This document shows, piece by piece, positions 5,473 through 58,263 of a stretch of DNA of 64,000 bases. This stretch comes from a virus. The notes beneath the pieces are model-generated. The model was not told where the DNA came from and ran no database searches. It worked only from the letters and a program-made list of their open reading frames with translations. Each line of letters starts with the position of its first letter. Position 1 is the stretch's first letter. The position numbers were made by a program, and so were the translations under genes. Location: the IMG/VR virus record IMGVR_UViG_3300009184_000001, positions 1 to 64,000 of that record, one strand, 5' to 3'.

Positions 5473-6273
5473 TTATGCTATCTGCTGGACAGTTAGAATA
5501 AGGGCAGCAGTTGTTGGTCTAGCCGGGTTAGTGCCAGCAACGTAAGACTCTAAGCTAACCTTATTCGATTCTGCGCCCCATTGCAGTTCAAGATACTGTC
5601 CTGCTTTAAAACTCAGAAAGTAGTTCCATCCAATAATAGCGTGTCCATGAACCTGCCCGTGTGAAGCCGGAACAGCTGCAAAACCAGTGCTACCAACAAC
5701 ATGGCTACCGTCTATTGCTAACCAAACATAGATATCTTGATTTTGGTTATCAATATTTTGAAATTGTCCTGACCATTGAATATTATATATTCCGGAATTT
5801 TGAAAGTAAATTCTAGTTGTGTTTGTATTTGAGATGTAAATACCAGATGAATAGTCTGTGGTATCCCAAGGAAAAATTTGCTCTACATTTGGGTTAGTTA
5901 TTGCTTGCCTACCCATATATTGAAAAGCCCCATAATTTCCAGTAGAATTGCTAACAACAGGAGCTGTAACAACCTCATTAGTTGTAGTGGTTACTACTTC
6001 AGTACCAGTACTTTGTGCACCAAATGTACCTGCCCAAATAGGATAAGATGGGTCTCCACCTTCAAACATAACCCAAACACCTTGACCAACTTTTGGAATA
6101 TTAGTAGCTATTCCGGGCTTTTCAACAGGCCATGCCCACTCTGTGTGTTGGTCTGCTAGTATCTGTGGAACTTTAAGTTGTAAACGGTATAGGTTTAAAG
6201 GGTCGTCAGAATTGTGGACAACACCTCTGTAAACTCCATAAAACCTAGCATTACCGTAAACATCTTTAATCAT
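5473..6273 (-). CDS. baseplate spike protein: OB-fold (gp5/VgrG-like) plus C1q/TNF-like domain
   Basis: 266 aa. Residues about 10-85 (YRGVVHNSDDPLNLYRLQLK ... GQGVWVMFEGGDPSYPIWAG) fit the OB-fold of gp5/VgrG-type spike proteins. After a Thr/Val linker, residues about 130-266 form a jelly-roll-like region similar to C1q/TNF domains (GIYNIQWSGQFQN, WLAIDGSHV, AALILTVQQIA). There is no lysozyme domain. It overlaps the J-type gene by one base (TAATG). Role: central spike or hub tip. Confidence 0.75.
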   Translation of the reverse strand: MIKDVYGNARFYGVYRGVVHNSDDPLNLYRLQLKVPQILADQHTEWAWPVEKPGIATNIPKVGQGVWVMFEGGDPSYPIWAGTFGAQSTGTEVVTTTTNEVVTAPVVSNSTGNYGAFQYMGRQAITNPNVEQIFPWDTTDYSSGIYISNTNTTRIYFQNSGIYNIQWSGQFQNIDNQNQDIYVWLAIDGSHVVGSTGFAAVPASHGQVHGHAIIGWNYFLSFKAGQYLELQWGAESNKVSLESYVAGTNPARPTTAALILTVQQIA

Positions 6274-50599: not shown

Positions 50600-50817
50600 T
50601 TAGTGCAACTACTCCCAAGGACGAAACAATGGGCGGAGTTATCCACGGCTAGTTGCCATACCGTGGCAGTGGACCAGCACAGAATTGAACTGTGGTCTTA
50701 CAGAGTCCTACTGGAGGCTTTGTTCTGCAATCGACACCATTTCTAGCCCTTGTGCCAGGATGATTGCCACTAGGCTCACGCGAGAACATACGGTGCTCCT
50801 GGCGAACACACGCTCTT
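50600..50817 (-). ncRNA. structured non-coding RNA region upstream of the tRNA
   Basis: About 215 bases with no open frame, between a consensus promoter and the tRNA-Trp. On the minus strand the 7-bp arms GCCAGGA/TCCTGGC, the 6-bp arms GCAATC/GATTGC and CCACGG/CCGTGG, and a T-arm-like CACAG-TTCAATT-CTGTG can all be drawn. The T-arm is canonical, but I could not fit a full tRNA around it, so it may be a decayed tRNA or part of a different RNA. Confidence 0.5.
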
Positions 50818-53119: not shown

Positions 53120-53488
53120 GCTACTGCTTAATATTAAAAGAGCTCAACCGTGTTTTTCACCTGGCGATAATATATCCTGCTTGCGTTAGGGTTGTCCCAA
53201 AATTACCGTTATCCTAACACCATCATAAATAGTGATGGCACACTACTTATGTGAATAAGGTTTCGTGCTACCTATGGCGTGTAATTCCTATTTATAGGCA
53301 TAACCCTTAGTAATACGGCTAAGGGTTATGCTCATAAAGTAATCGCTGACTATCTCCCCTTATTGCTACGGCACGGCTTATTCATTAGGGTTATCTCCCC
53401 TAATGTGTGAACTGTGCCGTAGTTAGGTGCAGTAAACGCTATAACAACCGTTATAGTGAAACCCTTTACGCTTAGGAGCGTGATAGCG
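53120..53488 (+). other. structured non-coding region with nested inverted repeats
   Basis: 369 bases without a gene. Perfect arms: GCATAACCCTTAG/CTAAGGGTTATGC (53298-53331, 13 bp), CTACGGCAC/GTGCCGTAG (53366-53422) enclosing CATTAGGG/CCCTAATG, CCATCA/TGATGG, CTATAAC/GTTATAG, and GTTAGG/CCTAAC. A TTAGGGTT-type word recurs in several. It may be a structured leader of the next gene or an origin-like region. Confidence 0.55.
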
Positions 53489-54100
53489 ATGAACACTACA
53501 ACATCGCAAACAGTATTAGTTGCTGACTCAACTGACGTAACTGGCAACGATGTGCCAGTATCCCTGTTTGAACGTGCCCTTGGTACGTTCACTGGTGACG
53601 GTGTTGGCTCTATCTTCAGGACTATTCCTGAATTAGAGCGACTAGTCCTTACTGAAATGGTGGCTCGACTAGAGTCCACTATGGAAGTAAACGGCGTAAC
53701 ATTCACCGTATCAGAAGCGCGTAGTTCCTTTAAGGCACTACACGTTCAGGGTGTCAAGACAGGCAAGCGAACCTGTGAGCAACTCCCAACTTGGGCAAAG
53801 AAGTCTGATGCCCCAGAGACAGAGTACGCAGAGACCATCATAGATAAAGAAATCTATGACATCTTCACAGTTGAGCGTGGCTTCATTGACGTAAAGTCAA
53901 ACGAAGAGGGTGTCCGTGACTATGTAGGTGTTCCTTGCCTGCTTAGAGGAGCAGATGCTCGCCTGTACAACGCCATTGACGAGTTCATTGGTGAACTTGG
54001 TATGGGCAGAAGCCGTCGTGGCAACAAGGGGTACTGGTCAGAGTATGACTTGGACGAGTTGGTCGCCGAGATGAAAGCCAGAATAGCTGAAATTAGCTAA
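53489..54100 (+). CDS. hypothetical early protein
   Basis: 203 aa from the ATG at 53489 (MNTTTSQTVLVADSTDVTGN); an upstream GTG frame is less likely. AGGAG is about 10 bases upstream. The middle has a NGVTFTVSEARSSFKALHVQ beta segment, and the C-terminus an acidic helix (DELVAEMKARIAEI). It lies between two structured non-coding regions. No recognised family. Confidence 0.65.
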   Translation: MNTTTSQTVLVADSTDVTGNDVPVSLFERALGTFTGDGVGSIFRTIPELERLVLTEMVARLESTMEVNGVTFTVSEARSSFKALHVQGVKTGKRTCEQLPTWAKKSDAPETEYAETIIDKEIYDIFTVERGFIDVKSNEEGVRDYVGVPCLLRGADARLYNAIDEFIGELGMGRSRRGNKGYWSEYDLDELVAEMKARIAEIS

Positions 54101-54364
54101 TCTGGCTACTGCTCAACACACGGGCAGGCTAAGTGAGTCTATCACCAGACTTACGAAGCCTGCCCGTTGCTGTTATCAAGTAAGACGTCGAGCAACGTCT
54201 ATAAATAATGCAGAAGTTACGCACGCTCTATGCTCCTAACTGCTAGGGAAAGTTAGGCGGGAAAGCCAGTGTTATTCCGATAAGGCAGTCAGCCCTAGAG
54301 ACACTTTAGGTGTAGGTGTGCAAAGCCCCTCTAGGGCACGCTCATTATAGAAAGGAGCCAAACT
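54101..54364 (+). other. structured leader with mutually exclusive stems
   Basis: 264 bases without a gene. Perfect ACGGGCAGGCT/AGCCTGCCCGT (54120-54167) and AGACGT/ACGTCT (54183-54200), then GCTAGGG, CCCTAGAG and CTCTAGGG in series: the middle block can pair with either side, a switch-like layout. The region ends with AAAGGAG just before the 73-aa gene ATG at 54365. Confidence 0.55.
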
Positions 54365-54586
54365 ATGGCTAAGAGCAAGTATGTCTTTGGAAATGCTTAC
54401 TATAGCAAAGCCCTAGCTATGAAAGATTACTATTATCATAGGGCAAAAGCAGTGAAGTGGTGGTGCGAGACATTTAACTCAGCACCAACTGTAAGGTCTG
54501 ATAGAAGAACCTTACGTAAAGCAAAACAAGTCACTAACTGGGACTTGTCAACAATGAATCTCTGGGAAGGAGAGCAGTATGTGTAA
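54365..54586 (+). CDS. 73-aa aromatic/basic protein
   Basis: ATG at 54365 after AAAGGAG. Starts MAKSKYVFGNAYYSKALAMK with a run of Tyr/Lys (DYYYHRAKAVKWW) and ends EGEQYV. It overlaps the next gene by 8 bases. Basic helix with many aromatics; DNA- or RNA-binding is possible, function unknown. Its leader carries the switch-like fold. Confidence 0.55.
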   Translation: MAKSKYVFGNAYYSKALAMKDYYYHRAKAVKWWCETFNSAPTVRSDRRTLRKAKQVTNWDLSTMNLWEGEQYV

Positions 54587-54879: not shown

Positions 54880-55245
54880 TCATAGAAGCAAGGATAGTAT
54901 TTGGGTTATCTATCCTCTAAGTCTTCTCTATATCTCTACAAATAAGACCCCCGTAGAGATGAATAAAGGGGGCAAGTCGTCCTAGTAGCGCACTCCAAGT
55001 GGCATTCCCCTAGAAATACGCAGGGTGAGTAAGGTTCGAATCCTTACAGTGTGTGAAAGGCTCTCTCTATATAATAAGTCCCCCATAGAGAGCAGTAAAA
55101 GGGGGCAAAGCCCCCTTAGACCCCCGTACAAGGGCGTTCTAAGGGTAACCAAAGGGGCTTGGCTACGACCAAGGCAAGCACAACCGCTGGCGGTAGCTGT
55201 CTTCTCTAGAAGTAGTCAAGCCCCTCAACCTATATGAAAGGTAGG
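54880..55245 (+). ncRNA. structured RNA region with two H-type pseudoknots and a tRNA-like T-arm
   Basis: Copy A (54932-54972): stem ATCTCTAC/GTAGAGAT with CCCCC in the loop and GGGGG downstream. Copy B (55063-55105): CTCTCTAT/ATAGAGAG with the same CCCCC/GGGGG arrangement. Between them lies TAAGG-TTCGAAT-CCTTA (55030-55046) with acceptor-like arms GCGCACT/AGTGTGT (54988-55054). The 3' part adds CCCTTAG/CTAAGGG, GGGGCTTG/CAAGCCCC and GCTAC/GTAGC. Hand-drawn; a real RNA is likely, its function unknown. Confidence 0.6.
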
Positions 55246-55251
55246 TAAGCA

Positions 55252-57645: not shown

Positions 57646-57660
57646 TATGTAAGGAAATGG

Positions 57661-58234
57661 CACTAGGAGCAGAGATGTTCCTAGTGTCTAACCTTTACAT
57701 AAAGTAAAGGACGTAGTGCCTGTCTAGAACCAAGAGCTAAGATGCAATAGGACAAAAAGCATCCACTAGCCCCATCAAAGTAAGGGAAATTCCCCCAAAC
57801 GTGGACAGAGTCGATTAGGTTGTATGAGCATTTGTAACTCTAGAACTAGACAGGCACTACAAATTAAGAATTCTATGTAGCAATACATAGCATCTGGAGT
57901 GGGCGGCCAGTAAAAAGAAAACCCTATGTCGGTGCAAGACCGAACTTCTATGCTGTGGCGAACATAGTCGGAGTTGCTGTGGTTTTAATAGTAGTTGAGT
58001 TAGCGATTGCTGAGTGCGTTACTACTGGTCATTGTCCACTTAGTTTGACTAAGAATAATACGTAAGACGAACTCACATCAAGCCCCCTGTTACACTGTCA
58101 CACAATGAGTTTATATAACTAGTGCTGATGTAGCAGGGGGCTTGCTTATAACACAGAGCGGCTAGCCCGACACAAACACCTAGCCCATAAGTTTCCGTAG
58201 CAATACGGTTTGCTATTAGCAACCCCGCTAATAG
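57661..58234 (+). ncRNA. large structured non-coding RNA candidate
   Basis: About 570 bases with no gene. Perfect arms: CACTAGGA/TCCTAGTG, CCTTTAC/GTAAAGG, GTAGTGCCTGTCTAG/CTAGACAGGCACTAC (57713-57860, 15 bp), GATGC/GCATC, CTATGTA-gcaa-TACATAG (GNRA loop), CTATGT/ACATAG, AGTAGT/ACTACT, CTTAGT/ACTAAG, AAGCCCCCTG/CAGGGGGCTT (58080-58143), CCGTA-gcaa-TACGG (GNRA), GCTATTAGC/GCTAATAGC. The multi-stem, GNRA-rich style is that of large ornate phage RNAs such as GOLLD or ROOL. Also carries a 13-nt motif copy. Confidence 0.6.
58167..58178 (+). repeat. oriented motif copy 5 (CCGACACAAACA)
   Basis: Loop of the GGCTAG/CTAGCC hairpin near the 3' end of the large structured region, plus (transcribed) strand. 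Confidence 0.65.
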
Positions 58235-58263
58235 CCAAATATATATAGAAAGGTTGATGTCCT

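Follow-up and report, generated by a model that had tools for sequence, protein, structure and literature searches.

What is an RNA locus in which two H-type pseudoknots surround a tRNA-like T-arm, and which of its parts recur in related phages? The locus lies in the window, a 64,000-nt stretch of DNA that makes part of a 94.4-kb virus record in which terminase, portal, major head protein and tail sheath are present. Annotated phages gave no BLAST match to the locus, to a 24-kb stretch or to two relatives; a terminase search led to a large phage group, with most complete records of about 90–95 kb, and the group consists of uncultured viruses of bacteria. The locus was found again through DNA similarity in G001/L101 and through the pattern of pseudoknot plus hairpin in L275, L278 and L279 (L276 is a near-identical contig). 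Several records bear two handles (G001/L101, L282/G043, and G040, which is L275), and L030 belongs to G002.

Two pseudoknots and a tRNA-like segment

The locus has the following features (window coordinates).

54891..54916, + strand: 5′ flanking hairpin GGATAG...CTATCC, from folding and alignment, common to L101, L278 and L279
54932..54972, + strand: pseudoknot A, the duplicate copy, in the window phage and a near-identical twin only (stem 1 54932-54939/54953-54960, C5 54948-54952, G5 54968-54972)
54988..55054, + strand: tRNA-like segment without D-arm; acceptor GCGCACT/AGTGTGT (possible, 7 bp with two G-U, 54988-54994/55048-55054), short arm CCCT..AGGG, T-arm GTAAGGTTCGAATCCTTAC (55029-55047)
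55063..55105, + strand: pseudoknot B, the conserved and presumably ancestral copy (stem 1 55063-55070/55085-55092, C5 55080-55084, G5 55101-55105)
55099..55117, + strand: hairpin P2, AAGGGGGC-AAA-GCCCCCTT, rival of pseudoknot stem 2 for G5; core pairing GGGGGC/GCCCCC (55101-55106/55110-55115)
55113..55145, + strand: hairpin P3, CCCTTAGACCCCC...GGG-CGT-TCTAAGGG (also written CCCTTAGACCCC...GGGG-CGT-TCTAAGGG), with a conserved CGT bulge; fold z -4.0
55153..55225, + strand: hairpin P4, long stem AGGGGCTTGGCTAC/GTAGTCAAGCCCCT, with A-U, G-U and G-C versions in relatives
55229..55247, + strand: P5, ACCTATATGAAAGGTAGGT, possibly a hairpin that contains the Shine-Dalgarno sequence of the next gene (ATG 55252), kept in L101, L275, L278 and L279
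55252..55437, + strand: downstream ORF of 61 aa from no known family; relatives have other genes after the element

The sequence-only reading had described two H-type pseudoknots with compensatory changes in stem 1. Sequence and coordinates are as it described them, and both copies beat shuffled sequences: the best pseudoknot score, compared with dinucleotide shuffles of the copy's own upstream 70 nt, gave p = 0.002 for A and likewise for B, and the pseudoknot descriptor had 0–1 matches per strand in shuffled 64 kb. As direct repeats of 32 nt, the copies share 81% identity and are 132 nt apart, and two stem-1 pairs are indeed altered on both sides (A-T to C-G and C-G to T-A) with pairing retained.

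A single pseudoknot, followed directly by hairpin P2, with neither a second copy nor a tRNA-like piece, was observed in L101, L275, L278 and L279. It corresponds to copy B (ATAGAGAG CAGTAAA in L101, L278 and L279); in L275 stem 1 is different throughout, yet nine perfect pairs are retained. Breakage of stem 1 or of the CCCCC/GGGGG pairing in homologues was looked for, and both were unbroken in all six close copies: stem 1 is retained (7–9 bp, 6/6) although its arms differ, stem 2 does not vary, and the shuffle test gave p values of 0.000–0.010 in every copy. As stem 2 and most of P2 are invariant, neither yields covariation evidence in its own right; it is stem 1, kept despite its changed arms, by which the predicted pseudoknot is supported in the close group. 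The pseudoknot is weaker in L282, G005 and G008 (p 0.07–0.12), which have in common AAAG before the C-rich arm; G004, G006, G037 and the two G044 copies lack a convincing one, P2-P3 alone being clearly retained there.

The claim that pseudoknots flank a T-arm is true for the window and fails in the relatives, with their one pseudoknot and no T-arm there. Judged from the sequences compared, pseudoknot A with the T-arm is an insertion or duplication present only in the window phage and its twin, so that two pseudoknots around a T-arm do not make a conserved unit. The twin contig is 99.985% identical to the window over 13 kb, with two differences, and has the same layout; given this contig the layout is probably real, the twin being no independent evidence. 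Besides the twin, the first scan with the pseudoknot pattern gave only chance matches in coding sequence. In the window, copy A and the tRNA-like segment follow the conserved 5′ flank and precede copy B; for copy A, which has no P2 partner, the pseudoknot is the only option.

The tRNA-like segment has a fold z of only -0.28. It was rejected as a tRNA: it has a T-arm and acceptor but no D-arm cloverleaf, and ARAGORN and RF00005 gave no match. The combination of pseudoknots with a T-arm resembles tmRNA; still, the locus has no tag frame and no tmRNA 5′ end, ARAGORN and RF00023 did not match it, and a tmRNA was rejected as well. Another D-armless tRNA-like sequence was seen in L101 at 5820-5880 (GCCCC..GGTAGGTTCGAGTCTTACC GGGGC), with a 10-nt loop and placed elsewhere than the one in the window.

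Two pseudoknots in one phage RNA bring to mind type III toxin–antitoxin systems, with tandem pseudoknots neutralising a ToxN-like nuclease; phage mimicry of ToxI is documented by the pseudo-ToxI of phage PhiTE (PMC3475682). The H-type pseudoknots of ToxI, however, are 36-nt head-to-tail repeats, while the window copies are 132 nt apart and relatives have one, and the ten ORFs near the locus showed in Pfam no toxin-like family and no ToxN-family match. Spacing, single copy in relatives and the lack of a toxin among these ORFs largely refute an antitoxin or its mimic, which we regard as highly improbable.

The P2-P3 core in related phages

By sequence comparison, the best and most widely conserved part of the element is P2-P3, of about 50 nt. 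It was found at 13 places in 12 phage records (near-identical twins omitted from the count), between putative early genes that differ each time. A covariance model was built from four sequences, and whole records were searched with the 50-nt P2-P3 model. The model alone found six places, namely G004, G005, G006, G008 and the second G044 copy (E 3e-5 or better), and G037 (E 8.7e-9); P2-P3 of L282/G043 was found by the P3 pattern. G044 carries two copies of P2-P3, 1 kb apart, and the window genome one. A P3-like hairpin in L281 and L283 was seen by pattern only, the best model match in L281 being weak (E 0.008), and both records were left out. In bacterial genomes the strict form of the P3 pattern had no match and the loose form had 14, of which the P2-P3 model, at E 0.01, listed none among those searched.

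In the fitted alignment of 12 of the 13 places, 94.8% of cells are paired versus 91.8% after shuffling, figures that we take as support and not as proof: the structure guided the fitting of the alignment, and the motif itself had served to find several of the sequences. Two pairs vary on both sides in this alignment, and sliding the partners destroys the pairing; at the P3 pair 31-127, U-A is replaced by A-U and by G-U. GGGCGT at the P3 bulge is retained in every copy, and the unpaired letters of P3 are conserved like its stems. The CT-rich upstream tract is unsafe as conserved RNA: in G008 and G037 it belongs to the final part of the upstream reading frame.

No Rfam family matches the P2-P3 locus (a hit to Ocean-VII reached 17.9 bits, far under its gathering threshold of 53.5), which agrees with the earlier remark that no described family was known with this exact layout. 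P2-P3 is a new RNA motif with no Rfam entry.

One could suppose that the locus holds plain intergenic hairpins whose role is to stabilise or punctuate mRNA and which do not switch, and that the pseudoknot is a by-product of a CT-rich sequence with G/C runs. Phage contigs often contain G5/C5 hairpins (the pattern TAAA..GGGGGC..GCCCCC gave at least 120 unrelated hairpins, none of them new with a pseudoknot), and invariant stem 2 is uninformative; but the 9-bp complementarity of the divergent L275 arms, the A versus B compensatory changes and the conserved unpaired letters of P3 make this very unlikely.

Alternative folds and possible role

The G5 run after TAAA has two possible partners, C5 of the stem-1 loop, giving the pseudoknot, and GCCCCC three bases on, giving P2; G5 of pseudoknot B is thus also the 5′ arm of P2. 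This competition was proposed from the letters of the window, and the option is kept in five out of five copies that have both features. The end of P2 is the start of P3, and the final CCC of P2 has an alternative partner, GGG at the P3 end. Because of the shared G5 and the P2/P3 overlap, the pseudoknot with long P3 should exclude P2 with short P3. Rough energies are -9.1 kcal/mol for the stem 2 duplex plus -18 to -23 kcal/mol for long P3, and -13.7 kcal/mol for P2 plus -9 to -13.5 kcal/mol for short P3; by these simple estimates, made with no pseudoknot model, the two states may be close once the pseudoknot penalty is paid. Given the records in which the pseudoknot is not convincing (G004, G006, G037 and G044), the switch cannot be general; if real, it belongs to the close subgroup. 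The shared G-run makes the idea testable by a few paired mutations.

The genes on either side of P2-P3 differ from phage to phage; a search of related records for the flanking ORFs of the window found them in G001 alone, if at all. From P3 to the next start codon there are 16–26 nt in L282, G004, G005, G006, G008 and G037, and 101–215 nt in the window group, where P4 and the Shine-Dalgarno hairpin lie between. In G037 the stop codon of the preceding frame is followed at once by P2, and in G008 the upstream frame, by sequence, runs up to P2. From the strand opposite to the structural genes and the small uncharacterised genes we infer that the operon is early.

We tentatively favour the view, with a probability of about 45% including the mechanism proposed below, that the element is a structured RNA that lies between cistrons of a phage early operon and acts in cis. 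Varying flanking genes and a next start close after P3 fit an autonomous cis element, and two copies in the G044 record suit it too. A conserved motif amid changing genes, with conserved unpaired letters, may point to a specific partner such as polymerase, ribosome or nuclease. Against this reading stand the lack of a U-tract after P2 or P3, the invariance of stem 2, and the + strand promoter and terminator search, which gave nothing beyond chance.

In the proposed mechanism the pseudoknot (C5 with G5) would form first during transcription. If it holds, the C-run of P2 would stay free and P3 would zip to full length; if it fails, P2 would form and P3 would be shortened. One of the states would act on passing RNA polymerase or on transcript processing, with expression of downstream early genes as the outcome, as for HK022 put. 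Pseudoknot A and the tRNA-like insertion would be a secondary elaboration, possibly an RNase P-type processing signal or a passenger.

The put RNAs of HK022 (putL and putR) are two adjoining stem-loops of about 70 nt, bulged, that act in cis in early phage transcripts (PMC9378689). P2-P3 likewise comprises two adjoining stem-loops with a bulge in an apparently early region, a generic feature that proves little alone. HK022 has two put copies, each downstream of an early promoter, and put antitermination goes through the zinc-binding domain of the RNA polymerase beta' subunit; here two copies were seen only in G044, and one in the window genome. Unlike put, P2-P3 has an upstream pseudoknot and stands just before start codons. 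Judged by its described structure, put may serve as the nearest working analogue, with no membership claimed, and either put-like antitermination or processing is a plausible mechanism by analogy. That the element is a bistable, protein-free RNA antiterminator unrelated to put, whose pseudoknot chooses the hairpin state and so times early genes in a large phage group, we consider doubtful.

In phage T7 early genes are separated by RNase III hairpins. A processing site for RNase III or another nuclease between early genes would agree with an intercistronic hairpin that has a conserved one-sided CGT bulge and stands directly upstream of the next ribosome-binding site; still, at about 12 pairs with the bulge P3 is a short stem, and the conservation of its sequence is stricter than nuclease sites require. 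We think this explanation unlikely.

The inserts that vary between phages, the tRNA-like one in the window and others, about 100 nt long, that L278 and L279 carry at a second site, between P3 and P4, could also mean a trans-acting, multi-domain noncoding RNA, released from the early transcript, with neighbour ORFs incidental. GOLLD and ROOL are structured phage RNAs of this style; they contain pseudoknots, and their variable linkers can include tRNA-like parts, in GOLLD sometimes tRNAs (PMC12286853). The window locus shares with them pseudoknots and variable inserts between conserved domains, it is retained while both flanking genes change, and other strongly folded regions (e.g. 57646-58263) are nearby. 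On the other hand, its core is far smaller and placed between small genes, the Rfam covariance models of GOLLD and ROOL did not match, P2-P3 precedes a start codon by 16–26 nt in six phages, the Shine-Dalgarno hairpin follows in the window group, and G044 has two copies. A trans-acting RNA is a possible explanation, if a rather improbable one. For the cis-acting element that we favour, a defined length of 50–130 nt suits a reporter test.

Other structured RNAs in the window and in related phages

An upstream stem with the loop word CCAGRT, then TGTTATCARGT, was observed at window positions 54104-54182 and in L101, L278, L279, L275, L282, G004 and G037; it precedes P2-P3 in the same order in several phages, and the region 54100-54365 has a fold z of -4.9. 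Two long hairpins (z -6.2) lie at 53120-53455, where a gap separates an HNH endonuclease gene from the ORF that follows. A non-coding stretch of 618 nt (57646-58263, fold z -10.5) with no Rfam match of note is about 71% homologous to L101 8936-9597, and 20 of its 145 predicted pairs are changed on both sides with pairing kept.

Six phages carry an 81-nt RNA whose 5′ and 3′ ends resemble those of a tmRNA; it has the alanine signal, a G3-U70 pair, but neither a tag frame nor pseudoknots. It occurs in the window (50669-50749, - strand), G006 (1555-1635), G040 (L275; 5272-5352, - strand), G014, G017 and G008. ARAGORN and Rfam made no call for it. In all rows of the alignment the acceptor, the T-arm and the inner hairpin are paired, with many compensatory changes; the counts include as a seventh row L332, a plain tRNA-Met. 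Phage DS6A has a tag-less tmRNA that inhibits the host tmRNA (PMC11915505), and by analogy the 81-nt RNAs look like new members of this kind. A full tmRNA gene, with the tag ATQNAYALAA, was seen in G002 (L030 54-344).
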